Below, one piece after another: positions 4,341 to 39,992 of a stretch of 64,000 bases of DNA (within the stretch, counting starts at the first letter, position 1; each line of letters opens with the position of its first letter). The translations under genes and the position numbers were made by a program. The notes below the pieces were generated by a model. That model was given only the letters and a program-made list of their open reading frames with translations, made no database searches and was not told where the DNA came from. The DNA comes from Lachnospiraceae bacterium (lineage in GTDB: Bacteria > Bacillota > Clostridia > Lachnospirales > Lachnospiraceae): assembly GCA_017618195.1 (NCBI GenBank), contig JAFZUW010000027.1, forward strand, positions 1-64,000, read 5' to 3'.

Positions 4341-5225
4341 CGCTTCCTCTTCGGTAAGGCCGAGCGTCATCAGCTTGATGATCTGGTCGCCGGCAATCTT
4401 TCCGATCGCCGCCTCATGAATTAGCGAAGCGTCCAGATGGTTTGCCGCAAGCGAAGGCGTCGCGACAACCCTGCCCTGATCCATCAGGATTGCGTCGCAC
4501 TCGGTATGACCGGTACACGCGTTGTTACCGTTGATCATAGAATAAAATTCCTGACGGGACTCACCCTTTGCAACCGAACGCGAAACAACGTCCGCGCCGC
4601 AGCCGACGCCGTTCAGATCAACCGTAAAATCGGTCTTCGCAAACTGCGTTCCGTGCGTCATGATCTTCTCGCGGATCACGAGGTTCGCTCCGTCCTTCAG
4701 ATCCGCCTTGGTTACGCGGATTGTGGAATCAACGCCCTTGATCTGAACCGTATCCATCTCAAGACGTCCGCCCTCGTCGATATGCACGATCGTCTGCGGA
4801 TTGAGGATACGGCTTCCTTTGCCGTCGCCCTCGCCGTAGTGCTTTTCGACATACTTCACGCGGGAGTTCTTTCCGACGAAAAACGTGTGGATTCCGTCAT
4901 GCTCGGAGTCGCTGTCGCCCGAGTTATGGATTCCGCAGCCCGCGATGATCGTTACATCGCAGTCCTCGCCGATATAAAAGTCATTGTAAACGCTCTCCTT
5001 AAGACCGCTCTGACTGAGAACGACCGGAATGTGTACGCTCTCGTTCTTCGTGCCGGGCTTGATGATAATGTCGATTCCGGGCTTGTCGGTCTTCGTAACG
5101 ATGTCGATATGCTCGGTCGTATTGCGGCCGGCGCCCTCTCCGTTTATGCGGAAATTATATGCCCCTGCGGGTACTCCGTGCAGGTCTGCGATCTGCATCA
5201 GCATTTCTTTCTGTATTGCGTCCAT
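4308..5225 (-). CDS. sufD: SufD/SufB-family Fe-S cluster scaffold component (short form)
   Basis: A 305-aa member of the SufB/SufD beta-helix family, shorter than classical SufB (about 470 aa) or SufD (about 420 aa). Typical features are the repeated beta-strand core (IIAGCGIHNSGD, LEMDTVQIKG) and a C-terminal helical part with HEAAIGKIAGDQI. With SufC it would form the scaffold that assembles and transfers Fe-S clusters in the cytoplasm. No separate full-length SufB, SufS or SufU is nearby, so this looks like a minimal two-gene SufC plus SufB/D system of the kind described in many anaerobes. The gap to sufC is 96 bp. Confidence 0.88.
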   Translation of the reverse strand: MDAIQKEMLMQIADLHGVPAGAYNFRINGEGAGRNTTEHIDIVTKTDKPGIDIIIKPGTKNESVHIPVVLSQSGLKESVYNDFYIGEDCDVTIIAGCGIHNSGDSDSEHDGIHTFFVGKNSRVKYVEKHYGEGDGKGSRILNPQTIVHIDEGGRLEMDTVQIKGVDSTIRVTKADLKDGANLVIREKIMTHGTQFAKTDFTVDLNGVGCGADVVSRSVAKGESRQEFYSMINGNNACTGHTECDAILMDQGRVVATPSLAANHLDASLIHEAAIGKIAGDQIIKLMTLGLTEEEAEQQIISGFLK

Positions 5226-34022: not shown

Positions 34023-35090
34023 TCAGTAGATTATCAGATGGTCGCTCCACACTTCCCATGAATATGGGTCAACCACGCTGCTCCGGTTAGAAATAAACAC
34101 CGGATCATAAGGCAGACCGAGTTCTTTTCGTTCCTCGTTCGTGAGGTACTGCTCGGTCACGGAAAATTCCTCATAAAACTTCTCCATTACCGTCAGTTCG
34201 CTTCCGTTAATGCGTCTCACCCGTTTGGTAAGATGGTGCGAGCCGTCATAAGTGTTGTCATATTCGTCATAAAGCGTGTTGTCCGCGGTATAGTATTCCT
34301 CGTGCACAAGATCGCCCGCCGTATCGTACCGGTACACGATGCGCGACGTACGATCATAGCCGCAGTCCGAACTCTCCGCGGAAGTCATCTTCCTGCCTTC
34401 AATATAGGTAAACACGCACCGGCGCTTCTCTTCGCTTCCGTCGGAATCCATGTCGATCCGAAGAACGGCATTCCCGAACTCATCATATGCAAATGTGCTG
34501 ACACGCCCTTCGTCCGGATAACAGATCCGGGCGACCCTTCCTTCTTCATCAAACAGGTACATATCCGATTCCATCCCGGGCTCAACCACGGTCGCATAAG
34601 AATAGAAATCGGCCTTTACGGAGACGCCGCCGTTACTGTCGGTCTCAAGTACCTGAAACACAGGTGTCCTCTCCGAACGTTTCACAAAATCTCCGTTTGC
34701 TTCATAAACCTCCGTTACGATACTCTGAATGTTTCCGGTCTCATCATAAACATAGATTTCAATATTGTTGCGGGTGTAGACTCCCTTTGAATTGCCCGGG
34801 TTCAGTATGCCGCGCGACTCCGTCCGGATAACGCGTCCGTCCTCATCATACTGATAGCTGACGCTTCCCGACGTGGAGCGGGCGCTCACCATGCGGATTA
34901 CCGTGTAGCGCTTTTCCTTTTCCTCTTCCGCGCCCGTTACGGCTTCTTCGGGTGCTTCCGCCTTCCGGCCGTTCTCCGTCTTTGCCTTGGACTTCCCGTT
35001 TTTGAGTACGTTTATGATTAATACGGCTTCCGCGGCAACCGCAATCACACAAACCGCGAGTACCAGAATCCGAAAAGTTTTACTCTTCAT
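34023..35090 (-). CDS. Membrane-anchored YD-repeat protein, paralog 3
   Basis: A 355-aa protein with a signal-anchor N-terminus (MKSKTFRILVLAVCVIAVAA) closely matching paralog 2. A charged linker follows (about 32-62, EEAVTGAEEEKEKR). Five or more YD-type units come next (YQYDEDGRV, YVYDETGNI, FDEEGRV, FAYDEFGNA, YRYDTAGDL). The shared C-terminal motif is complete: EQYLTNEERKELGLPYDP, then VDPYSWEVWSD and LIIY. It ends with its own terminator. Paralog 4 lies 131 bp upstream on the same strand. Confidence 0.78.
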   Translation of the reverse strand: MKSKTFRILVLAVCVIAVAAEAVLIINVLKNGKSKAKTENGRKAEAPEEAVTGAEEEKEKRYTVIRMVSARSTSGSVSYQYDEDGRVIRTESRGILNPGNSKGVYTRNNIEIYVYDETGNIQSIVTEVYEANGDFVKRSERTPVFQVLETDSNGGVSVKADFYSYATVVEPGMESDMYLFDEEGRVARICYPDEGRVSTFAYDEFGNAVLRIDMDSDGSEEKRRCVFTYIEGRKMTSAESSDCGYDRTSRIVYRYDTAGDLVHEEYYTADNTLYDEYDNTYDGSHHLTKRVRRINGSELTVMEKFYEEFSVTEQYLTNEERKELGLPYDPVFISNRSSVVDPYSWEVWSDHLIIY

Positions 35091-35221
35091 AGCATCCCCC
35101 TCAGAAACACTTTTACGGATATAATGCGCGGGATGCTGCGGGAAGTCACATTTTCCGAAATACGGAACACACGATCACATCGTCCGAATACGTCGGACCG
35201 GTGCCGAAGGAAGTATTTTTC

Positions 35222-36424
35222 TTATTTTCCGGGATAGAGGTCGCTGAACACCTGCCAGAGATAAGGATCGATCGTATGCATCGGCTCCATCACCCATTCC
35301 GGATCATAAGGAAGACCGAGGTCCATCCGCTCCTTATTCGTAAGATAATCCTCTCTGACATTCACGATTTCGTATTGATAAGTAAGGACAATGTCCTCAT
35401 TACTGTCTTCGACACTCTCTCGGATCTCCAGGATATCTCCGTCCTCATCATAAAAGAACCGTTTATCCATCGCGACATTTCCGCCCTTACGATAGAATGT
35501 GCCTGTAAGAAGACGTCCGTCCGTGTCGTATTGATACGTGACATAATAGATATCCTGTTCGTCCGCGCTTGGATTTCTGGCACCGATCAGCTGCCCTGCG
35601 TCATTATACATAAACTCACAGCGGCGTATCTCGTGTCCGCTCGGATCGAAATCCGTCCGCTTCACGGGATTGCCCGCCTGATCATACTCCACACGGCTGA
35701 ATCGGTCATCGGCCTTCAGAAAATACATCGCCGTTACCCTTCCCCTGCTGTCGCGGTCCAGGTTCCATTCGCCGCCGCTCAGACAGAAATCAAGCGAATC
35801 CGGACGGTCGGCATGCCGCTCCCATGCTATACGGAGTATTCCGTCAAAATAGGTTTCCAGGGAACCGGTAAGACCGCCGTCTCCGACAAGCATGAATCCG
35901 CCAGCCCCATACCCGGCGCCTTCATCATAGGAGTGGTGCTCTCTGAATAACTTTATTCCTTCCAGATATTCATAGGTGTATTTACGAATAATACTTTCCT
36001 CCCATGGAGAACGGAACTCCAAATACGCTTTGCTGACCTTTTCGGTAAGCCGCCCGTCCTCCGGGTCATAACTGCAGACAACGCTCCCGTAAGGCGATTC
36101 CGCCCGGACCACGCGTTTCACAGGATAGGTGTTGAGTGCTTCCGGTGTCGGTGCCTCGGTCGGTGTGGGCGTCACGGTCGGTGTGGGCGTCACGGTCGGT
36201 GTCGGGGTCGGCGTAACTGTCGGGGCCGCAGTCGGTGTCGGGGTCGGCGTAACTGTCGAGTCAGGAGCCGTTGTAGGCGTCAGGCCGGCTTCTGCGGTCG
36301 GATTTTCCGTATCGGTTTCCGTCTTCGTCTTCTTTCCGCCAAGCACTCCGGATCCGATCAGGATTCCGAGTCCCAAAGCAGCGCAGATACATACGATGAG
36401 TACAATCAAGTGTGTTTTCTTCAT
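35222..36424 (-). CDS. Membrane-anchored YD-repeat protein with Thr-Pro linker, paralog 4
   Basis: A 400-aa protein with a signal anchor (MKKTHLIVLIVCICAALGLG), a long Thr-Pro linker (about 45-98) and six YD-like units (VEYDQAGNPV, FMYNDAGQL, YQYDTDGRL, FFYDEDGDI and others). The family C-terminal motif is present: EDYLTNKERMDLGLPYDPEW, then IDPYLWQVFSD. The linker suggests the repeat domain is held away from the membrane, perhaps across the peptidoglycan. The start is ATG at 36424 rather than a 12-codon upstream extension. The linker DNA is a recent tandem repeat. Confidence 0.78.
   Translation of the reverse strand: MKKTHLIVLIVCICAALGLGILIGSGVLGGKKTKTETDTENPTAEAGLTPTTAPDSTVTPTPTPTAAPTVTPTPTPTVTPTPTVTPTPTEAPTPEALNTYPVKRVVRAESPYGSVVCSYDPEDGRLTEKVSKAYLEFRSPWEESIIRKYTYEYLEGIKLFREHHSYDEGAGYGAGGFMLVGDGGLTGSLETYFDGILRIAWERHADRPDSLDFCLSGGEWNLDRDSRGRVTAMYFLKADDRFSRVEYDQAGNPVKRTDFDPSGHEIRRCEFMYNDAGQLIGARNPSADEQDIYYVTYQYDTDGRLLTGTFYRKGGNVAMDKRFFYDEDGDILEIRESVEDSNEDIVLTYQYEIVNVREDYLTNKERMDLGLPYDPEWVMEPMHTIDPYLWQVFSDLYPGK
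36158..36258. repeat. Tandem repeats encoding a Thr-Pro linker
   Basis: Two perfect 18-bp copies (36158-36175, 36176-36193) and two perfect 28-bp copies (36195-36222, 36231-36258). They encode Thr-Pro-Val units of the linker in YD paralog 4. The identity of the copies points to recent slippage-type expansion. Confidence 0.85.
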
Positions 36425-36459
36425 GAAACATTTCCCCTCAAATTTTATATCATACTTCA

Positions 36460-36487
36460 AGCCGGCGCAGTTTTCCTGCAGCCGGCT
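36460..36487 (-). terminator. Hairpin after the cysteine desulfurase gene
   Basis: AGCCGG plus GCAG arms pair with CTGC plus CCGGCT around a small internal mismatch and a 5-nt loop. It lies 6 nt past the desulfurase stop. There is no strong T run, so termination is only probable. Confidence 0.6.
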
Positions 36488-37733: not shown

Positions 37734-39272
37734 TCAAGGCTCCTCCACCACACCGACGAAAAGCGGAATGTTGTCGTAAGTCTGGATGGAGAACAGAAAC
37801 GGTCTGTCTAACGTAAAATCAATCTCTTCTGTCGAAAGCCCCATGCCGGCAACCTGCAATTCCGTGAATGCCGCTGCCTTAACGCCTTCCTCATCCACCA
37901 TCACACGAATCGCATGTCTTGCATCCGATACGAAGAATCCTCTGGCGGTCTTAAAAAGAGGTGAGAAATCGGCCTTCTTATCATCAAAGACATCCGTCAC
38001 GCCCATTTTCTGAAGAGACTCTTTCAGTTTGAACGAGCATGCAATGTCATACTTCGGAACGGTAAGGTGTACAATAGCGGAATGTCCCTTGCCTTCCATA
38101 CCTTTCTCCATCAGACGGTGTACCTCGGTATCCGCCAGCAGCTCGTCCGTGGTCACGCCTTCATTCGGAAGGATAAACCACATAAAGGACGACGATTCAT
38201 TCTTGAAGTATTTCGGAACGGCGATGAACTTCTCTCCGCGATAATACAAGCCGCCGTGTGCGGACTGATGCATATAGGAAACTTCACGGTCTCCCGAAGC
38301 CGCATGGAATATTCCGGTATCGGTAAGTCCCTTTGCAAATTCCGTGTCCCATTTGGCCTGATACAGAATCGTGGTAATCAGTCCGAGCACCGTATTGTCG
38401 TCAAAGCTGATATCGCTGACTTCCTTTTCAAGCAATCCGCCGGTCCGGCCGTTGATCCAGCTCTGAACCGCCTTATTGTACGCGCTGCTGCCCATCTTTC
38501 CGCGGAAGGAAGATGCGTGATAATATAACGCCAGGTTTTCAAGCGCCTTCTTGTCGTAGGAATCCGAGTCGTCACGGAGCCATAAGGACGAGCCGAGAAC
38601 ACATTTGCCGGTTGCATCGTCCTTATAAAGCACGTTCCAAAGCAGGTCGGCACGCGTCCTGAGATCCGCCGCGCTGTCTGCTCCGGTAAGTGAAAGTATC
38701 TGCTGTCTCGTGCTGCCGTCGGTAACATCCGCAAGCATCGCAAGCGTCAGATAGATATTGATCGGGGAAAATGCACGGTTCTTTCCGCTCTGTCCGGCAA
38801 GAATGTTCATCATGCCGGAAGCGGTAAACTTTGCCACGGGACCGATTGCCTTATCCATCCCGTAATCGATCAGCTTATTCCGATGAGCACCCGCCTCGTC
38901 CATCCATGCATTCACCGCAGCGGCATATTTTTCCCAATCGTCGCCTTCCAAATCATAATCGGCAGGGTCGGGCCATGCGGACAGTTTCGGATAAACCGCT
39001 GACGCAATCGTGTAGTCCTTCAGTTTCGGGTCTGCGTACGGATCGAGATTAATGCCGGATTTTTTGAGAATTCCCGATTTCATTAAGAAAATACCTCCCG
39101 TGATCACAGCAACAACTGCCGCCGCTGCGGCCATGGGTGCGATCCAGCGCGTGAATCCTTTCTTCTTTCCGGTCTTTTCGGTACCGGCGAGACTGTTCTT
39201 AACGCCTTCACTCCGTTCCAGAAGGTCTTCCTCAACCGTCCCGATGCCGTCCATTAAATCTTTTTCTTTCAT
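37734..39272 (-). CDS. Membrane-anchored serpin, putative anti-sigma partner
   Basis: A 512-aa protein directly downstream of an ECF sigma gene. Residues 1-40 (MKEKDLMDGIGTVEEDLLER, then basic) resemble the short cytoplasmic segment found in clostridial anti-sigma-type proteins. A membrane helix spans about 43-64. An outside serpin domain (about 145-512) follows, with typical strands (AFSPINIYLTLAML, VPKYDIACSFKL, DRPFLFSI). The reactive loop has an inhibitory-type hinge: EEG, then AAA, then T (about 461-470). By position, Met477 would be P1. The start is ATG at 39272 after AAAGGAGAC. Anti-sigma function is inferred from gene order and topology. Confidence 0.8.
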   Translation of the reverse strand: MKEKDLMDGIGTVEEDLLERSEGVKNSLAGTEKTGKKKGFTRWIAPMAAAAAVVAVITGGIFLMKSGILKKSGINLDPYADPKLKDYTIASAVYPKLSAWPDPADYDLEGDDWEKYAAAVNAWMDEAGAHRNKLIDYGMDKAIGPVAKFTASGMMNILAGQSGKNRAFSPINIYLTLAMLADVTDGSTRQQILSLTGADSAADLRTRADLLWNVLYKDDATGKCVLGSSLWLRDDSDSYDKKALENLALYYHASSFRGKMGSSAYNKAVQSWINGRTGGLLEKEVSDISFDDNTVLGLITTILYQAKWDTEFAKGLTDTGIFHAASGDREVSYMHQSAHGGLYYRGEKFIAVPKYFKNESSSFMWFILPNEGVTTDELLADTEVHRLMEKGMEGKGHSAIVHLTVPKYDIACSFKLKESLQKMGVTDVFDDKKADFSPLFKTARGFFVSDARHAIRVMVDEEGVKAAAFTELQVAGMGLSTEEIDFTLDRPFLFSIQTYDNIPLFVGVVEEP

Positions 39273-39283
39273 ATTGTCTCCTT

Positions 39284-39841
39284 TCACAGAAAATGTCTGC
39301 TTAAAAGATGATCGTGCAGCTTCTTTCTGGTGCGGTTCAATATGACGCTCACATTATTCTGCGAGATGCCGTACCGAAGCGCAATCGACTTCACGTCTTC
39401 CAAAAAGAAATACCGTCTGAGAAATACGTCTCCCTCCCGTTCGGGAAGCGCTCGGACAAATGCGCGGATTTCTTTCGACAATTCCTCCGCAAGCACTGTT
39501 TTTTCGGGGTCGGATCCGCCGGCGATACACTCGCTCAGTTCTTCGAGCGCCATCGTCATTTCCCCGCTTCCGCGCTTCTTTGCATGCTCCTCATTGTAAC
39601 GGTTGATTGCACGATTTCGCGTGAGTTTGGCAAGAAACATGCGAAATACCGTAGGTTTCTGCGGCGGGATGCTGTTCCAGGCACTGTTCAGTGCGTCGTT
39701 GACGCATTCTTCGGCGTCCTCCCGGTTTCCCAAAATCCGGTAAGCGATTGCCTGCAGATACCGGCTGTACTTCCGGTCCGTTTCGGCAATTCCCTGTTGA
39801 TTACGCTGAAAGAACAAATCGATGATCTGATTATCTTCCAT
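39284..39841 (-). CDS. ECF-type RNA polymerase sigma factor
   Basis: A 185-aa sigma-70 family protein. Region 2 is seen at YSRYLQAIAYRILGNREDAEECVNDA split over about 23-48, and MFLAKLTRNRAINRYNEE follows. Region 4 is at about 130-180 (LPEREGDVFLRRYF, GISQNNVSVILNRTRKKL). It would direct RNA polymerase to a small regulon, probably responding to an outside signal through the membrane serpin encoded 11 bp downstream. No third gene follows in the same direction with an obvious regulon link except the cysteine desulfurase 35 bp after the serpin. Confidence 0.92.
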   Translation of the reverse strand: MEDNQIIDLFFQRNQQGIAETDRKYSRYLQAIAYRILGNREDAEECVNDALNSAWNSIPPQKPTVFRMFLAKLTRNRAINRYNEEHAKKRGSGEMTMALEELSECIAGGSDPEKTVLAEELSKEIRAFVRALPEREGDVFLRRYFFLEDVKSIALRYGISQNNVSVILNRTRKKLHDHLLSRHFL

Positions 39842-39992
39842 AGAACAATCCCCCTTGTCGCATTTTCCTGTCTCTCACCCTACAAGACAGCAAATGAAGA
39901 CAAATGTTACAAACAAATTTCTGCTCGGGACAATATTTTTATATGCAGGTTCCGAAAATGCGGCAAATCCGCTGCTTTCGGGCCGTTTTTGT

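Follow-up and report, generated by a model that had tools for sequence, protein, structure and literature searches.

The closest described counterpart of the locus analysed here is the sigma-V/RsiV pair of Bacillus subtilis and Clostridioides difficile. RsiV binds and inhibits lysozyme and is made from the operon transcribed by its sigma factor (PMC5014341, accessible part), and in C. difficile, according to the accessible part of PMC9044953, release needs a site likely cut by signal peptidase as well as RasP. Exchangeable outer sensor domains, which we also describe here, are known from the sigma-I/RsgI systems of cellulolytic clostridia, where they include CBM and others (PMC12484212 and PMC3413522, accessible parts). 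Unlike the outer domain of the present pair, the RsgI sensors bind carbohydrate. SigI belongs to another sigma type, and RsgI reportedly undergoes autoproteolysis, as the title of one study has it. Serpin production in Bifidobacterium breve is induced by protease (papain) treatment, as stated in the accessible part of PMC8012564, which cites Alvarez-Martin 2012; the protease-inducible serpin is thus similar, but the B. breve sensor is a separate two-component system and not the serpin. Tengpin, cellulosomal PinA and the B. longum serpin have the serpin fold in common with our protein, and an anti-sigma role for them was not found in the literature searched, as far as its accessible text extends. 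Nor was any description found there of a serpin joined to an anti-sigma factor; the accessible parts of PMC12484212 and PMC3413522 name both a serpin and an anti-sigma factor, but apart. A serpin as the sensor of an anti-sigma factor was not an arrangement known to an earlier, sequence-only reading of this DNA, and as far as the literature was searched, that statement holds.

The locus lies in the window, by which we mean the whole stretch of 64,000 nucleotides of Lachnospiraceae DNA that was analysed, and comprises the following features.

39876..39911, minus strand: promoter-like element TGTAACA-N15-TGTCTTGTAGGGTG, probably autoregulatory
39284-39841, minus strand: ECF sigma factor, 185 aa
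37734-39272, minus strand: putative membrane-anchored serpin anti-sigma factor, 512 aa from its ATG (open-reading-frame list, Pfam, tip profile)
39144..39272, minus strand: N-terminal tip of the serpin protein, about 43 aa, with the motif MKEKDLMDGIGTVEEDLLERSE
39087..39143, minus strand: transmembrane helix, at the hydropathy maximum
38826..39071, minus strand: membrane-serpin linker of about 80 residues, between the helix and the Pfam match and presumably outside
37737..38825, minus strand: serpin domain PF00079
37863..37892, minus strand: reactive-loop hinge P17-P8, EEGVKAAAFT, from the alignment of sigma-linked serpins
37842..37844, minus strand: predicted P1, a Met numbered 477 from the ATG and 482 from a GTG start

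The 39284-39841 product contains both region 2 and region 4 of an ECF sigma factor, with Sigma70_r2 (1.5e-10), Sigma70_r4_2 (2.2e-7) and Sigma70_r4 (3.8e-6) all above the Pfam cut-off and the sigma70-ECF superfamily model above that of NCBIfam, and in the genus 14 sigma factors that are 60-71% identical to it stand ahead of serpin fusions. The partner gene has an alternative GTG start at 39287, which would give 517 aa in the open-reading-frame list, but its homologues line up at the ATG (39272), and the gap between the two genes is therefore 11 bp. The strongest hydrophobic stretch of the partner, residues 49-67, has a mean Kyte-Doolittle value of 2.12, compared to 1.09 for the runner-up elsewhere, with five K/R in the 15 residues before it and three after. 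The PF00079 match is that of a complete domain (residues 155-517 of the 517-aa reading, profile positions 7-370 of 370, E 5.1e-57), and the closest PDB sequences are 2pee and tengpin 2vh4 (2e-40); judged by these Pfam and PDB sequence matches, the partner is a serpin in fold. Pfam, NCBIfam, hydropathy and the homologue starts thus bear out the layout that had been read from the letters, a sigma gene followed 11 bp on by a protein with a tip, a helix and an outside serpin. The partner adjoins its sigma gene, has a single helix and carries an N-terminal tip like that of other sigma partners (18.3 bits to the tip profile), the attributes by which a transmembrane ECF anti-sigma factor is recognized. 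No known anti-sigma family model was found on it, the serpin being its sole Pfam model above cut-off and NCBIfam giving none. Its tip of about 43 aa compares with 50 aa or more for the anti-sigma domain of class I, and anti-sigma domains under 50 aa have been set aside as possibly divergent class II (PMC7406223, accessible part).

When the fusion protein was searched against 22 genomes of the genus, long-type serpins, defined by at least 340 bits plus a split copy in G189, were found at 23 places. On our reading of the loci, the tip motif with a sigma gene directly upstream is present at 15 of these places, in 11 of the 22 genomes, and a sigma gene without the tip was found at none of the 23. 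One of the 15 pairs (G189 C7) has a frameshifted serpin; this fusion copy stands behind an intact sigma gene (L063/L107), and an intact pair is also present elsewhere in that genome. Tip and sigma gene are both missing from six places, namely those of G305, G299, G315 and G317 and two second copies in tandem. In G302 the sigma gene is missing and the tip is degenerate, and G303, whose serpin is the one most closely related to that of the window, has kept the tip without the sigma gene. The sequence TGTAACATTTGTCTTCATTTTGCTGTCTTATAAG, which resembles the window promoter element, still stands just ahead of the G303 serpin gene, and because of this promoter-like relic G303 seems to have lost its sigma gene. 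The genomes G303, G305 and G317, all without a serpin-linked sigma, carry elsewhere a sister sigma with a non-serpin partner, which is in none of the 11 serpin-pair genomes among the matches listed and which, since G303 keeps tip and relic, may have taken over the G303 serpin (L099 of G303, 4803-4889, and L080-L082).

Profile searches covered 397 genomes of the family (159 matched) and 391 of the class (155 matched at E 1e-20), and the wider serpin sample is not random because its loci are the best matches plus 20 further stretches that were chosen. Tip and sigma occur together in 33 of 152 distinct serpin frames, the tip alone in 2 (G303 and L180 of G723), the sigma without a recognized tip in 8 and neither in 96, and the 13 others were not judged because the sequence stretch ended too near; the association of tip and sigma is strong when kinship is ignored (Fisher 5e-22, on the 152 frames with these 13 not judged). 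The sigma of one of the 33 (L142) is a 66-aa fragment. The 33 span 16 genera: the window's genus accounts for 15 loci, 13 further genera of its family for 16, and two further families within the class for the last 2, which among the loci examined places 18 pairs in 15 genera outside the genus. The sequence-only reading had made its proposal depend on conservation of the pair in related genomes; with 15 loci in the genus and 18 beyond, the pair is conserved, and the pairing is therefore not due to chance. By eye, two of the sigma-only frames (L154, L163) carry a divergent form of this tip, the other six (L014, L056, L064, L166, L189, L205) have other N-termini before the hydrophobic segment, and in many relatives without sigma a lipoprotein-type signal takes the place of the tip.

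On balance, we favor the reading that the locus encodes an ECF sigma/transmembrane anti-sigma pair with an inhibitory serpin outside, in which protease attack frees the sigma factor and the sigma factor remakes the serpin. At rest, the short tip would keep sigma at the membrane. Once a serine protease outside the cell, with elastase- or subtilisin-like preference, attacked the reactive loop, the serpin would spring and trap the protease, and the irreversibly changed or consumed anti-sigma factor would let sigma go, probably after being cut at site 1 and site 2 in the manner of RsiV. Freed sigma would then transcribe its own operon, replacing the spent serpin, and the result would be a shield against proteases that renews itself and doubles as the sensor. 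The protease as signal, its inhibition and the route of sigma release are what we infer here. An M50 site-2 protease is present in the window's genome, and says little for the model because all 14 of 14 control genomes have one. As in sigma-V/RsiV, as far as accessible texts describe it, the outer part of the anti-sigma factor would block the attacking enzyme (lysozyme for RsiV, a protease as proposed here) and sigma would be autoregulated. Unlike RsiV, the outer domain is a serpin, which would be aimed at proteases as an irreversible trap, and the protein matches no anti-sigma family model. With the logic of RsiV shared and a protease trap outside, the pair can thus be described as a candidate ECF/anti-sigma system with a new outer domain.

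The promoter-like element of the window has counterparts in the genus, upstream of the 15 sigma genes that are linked to serpins; by eye these regions have a TGTAAGA-15-TGTNNTATAGGG-like sequence in common, and in several of them the -35 part is weak or there is an indel. The window contains a single site at up to three mismatches (0.02 expected) and its own genome a single site at up to two. At up to two mismatches, the consensus gave 11 matches in the 22 genomes, compared to 0 for the reversed control; 10 stand before the sigma-serpin operon, one each in 10 of the 11 pair-carrying genomes, and the eleventh (G306) looks like chance. It matched neither the G313 pair nor the additional pairs that G300, G308 and G189 carry. 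A shorter core gave 10 matches at zero mismatches, nine of them at the operon, with five for the control. Since the pattern was derived from these promoters, the matches at the operon come by construction, and the weight therefore rests on the absence of other sites. No second strong site was found in the window's genome at the thresholds used, which leaves room for weaker targets. The circuit is likely autoregulation of one operon, with the 39284-39841 sigma presumably reading the promoter-like element. A narrower first pattern, which matched the window's sigma only, was replaced after the upstream regions had been read, and a consensus promoter scan of the region produced sites no more numerous than in shuffled sequence. 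Control of the genome's three other serpins by the window sigma was rejected, since none of them has a site at the thresholds that were set. A fixed link with a cysteine desulfurase gene was also rejected, as this gene is downstream in the window and G303 and upstream in G305, G299 and G315. Downstream of it in the window (34023-36460, minus strand), two proteins have a signal-like N-terminus, RHS/YD repeats and similar C-terminal endings.

An operon that is the only strong site found also fits a circuit for serpin production under any signal, and hence a reading that we consider unlikely, in which the partner is a true anti-sigma factor whose serpin is shield or effector only, a signal such as envelope stress, unfolding or another protease acts on the linker or helix, and sigma upkeeps the serpin stock. 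Consistent with it, a sigma, a separate anti-sigma factor and a lipoprotein serpin are encoded in a row in L006 and L151, which makes fusion unnecessary for serpin control. The tip gene of L006 (4229-7266, from a rumen clostridial MAG) is of the same kind as that of the window, and the row is an unfused version of the pair. The argument on the other side is that the serpin is fused to more than one type of anti-sigma-like tip, which goes beyond the needs of co-expression. A second type (MKSSDEM...) gave 12 matches in 10 of the 22 genomes in the genus search, comprising 10 other serpins, one non-serpin with an ECF sigma upstream and one weak cross-match to a first-type serpin. Five of the 10 serpins have an ECF sigma upstream and five do not; in four of the latter the tip is weak or shortened, and L225, with a strong second-type tip and no sigma found, is a real exception. 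The second-tip fusion of L014 (697-2856) has a leucine-rich-repeat-like C-terminal region, a match below cut-off. In L005 (6612-11862) and L057 (1162-3715), lipoprotein serpin genes stand ahead of another kind of sigma-like gene and of a gene for a membrane protein that may be its anti-sigma factor; three tandem lipoprotein serpins are present in the window's own genome, and their order with the sigma-like gene recurs in G310.

Tips of the first type are also found without a serpin. By eye, 15 of the 16 serpin-free sigma loci that were retrieved then encode a protein with a similar tip, and none was seen at L098, in the window's own genome. Among nine serpin-free partners that were scanned, two carry a beta-propeller (PF09826), which makes the outer domain swappable, and seven have no family above cut-off. 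In a tree of 57 sigma factors (34 serpin-linked, 23 not), supported branches force at least three switches, and the best tree has eight.

The window hinge has Gly at P15, small residues at P12-P10 and the predicted P1 as the 17th residue from P17, as in inhibitory serpins, along with Val at P14 and Phe at P9. In an ungapped alignment, hinge and predicted P1 Met match up with the Conserpin-AATRCL loop (PDB 6ee5), whose Met is the P1 of alpha-1-antitrypsin. Both the inhibitory-type hinge and a P1 at Met477 with classical spacing had been proposed from the letters, and both are upheld by these alignments. In the alignment of 36 sigma-linked serpins, P15 is Gly in 36, P12 Ala/Gly in 36, P10 Ala in 31 and P8 Thr in 30, and much the same conservation is seen in 37 unlinked relatives; a hinge kept equally without sigma argues for loop insertion, not for signaling. 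The predicted P1, taken from fixed spacing along the loop, was counted in 35 of the linked serpins, L172 being excluded as its loop is not hinge-like by eye, and is Ala in 15, Gly in 7, Thr in 5, Glu in 3, Met in 2 and Val, Leu and Ser in one each, with Ala, Gly and Thr together making up 27 of the 35. Elastase- and subtilisin-like proteases differ from trypsin-like ones in P1 specificity, and since Lys/Arg occurs at this position in 0 of 35 linked and 0 of 37 unlinked serpins, an elastase- or subtilisin-like target fits better than a trypsin-like one. The center of the loop is partly conserved, with Gly at 481 in 27 of the 36, and animals are known to have non-inhibitory serpins; both points lean toward a serpin fold that acts as a non-inhibitory ligand-binding domain and senses something other than a protease. 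Given the small-residue hinge that is kept and P5 and P4, which rank among the domain's most variable positions in the 36 sigma-linked serpins, we regard this as quite improbable.

The remaining evidence concerns the tip and its sigma factor. The tip profile was built from 14 sigma partners without a serpin domain, which makes it independent of the fusions (L006, with a separate serpin gene next door, excepted), and it detects the window tip at 18.3 bits. On a tree of 73 serpin domains that excluded the tip, a quick tree with 29 of 70 inner branches weak, the best topology has 20 changes in sigma linkage, and supported branches force at least 10. In 10 independent pairs taken across supported branches, tip and sigma change together in 8 (7 in some random pairings) and in opposite directions in 0 (median p 0.008). 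Leaving out three rows with other tips gave 9 pairs, a mean of 7.9 in the same direction and 0 opposite, and purely automatic tip labels gave 10 pairs, a mean of 7.5 and 0 opposite (p 0.008 to 0.07). In 32 sets of sigma, tip and serpin, distances over 26 tip residues correlate with those of sigma at r 0.80 and with those of their own serpin at r 0.44; the partial correlations are 0.74 for tip and sigma (p 0.0005, the floor of 2000 permutations) and -0.003 for tip and serpin (p 0.49). Weaker values, 0.53 and 0.34, were obtained with 45 N-terminal residues and uncorrected start sites. The tip thus tracks sigma and not its own serpin, which indicates that sigma and tip form a co-evolving unit and the serpin an exchangeable part. 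At the level of sequence, the coupling of sigma and tip is well supported, and so now is the anti-sigma layout of the sequence-only reading, through the tip on serpin-free partners, the linkage on the tree and the co-variation; the tip presumably binds sigma itself. Tip-bearing serpins without an adjacent sigma (G303, L180) would suit a sigma and a serpin that are mere operon neighbors with no anti-sigma relation, which the tip profile, the joint gain and loss and the co-variation make highly implausible.

In a wider form of the favored reading, which we offer tentatively and at somewhat less than even weight, a suicide inhibitor would serve as a transmembrane receptor, the intact pool of serpin anti-sigma factor would count protease hits because each trapping event is irreversible, sigma would restore that pool via a one-operon loop, and bacteria of this class would have arrived at the arrangement more than once, with different tips. 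If true, this would show how these bacteria sense protease attack, would give bacterial serpins a role in signaling and would provide a naturally occurring switch from protease to transcription whose sensor can be swapped.
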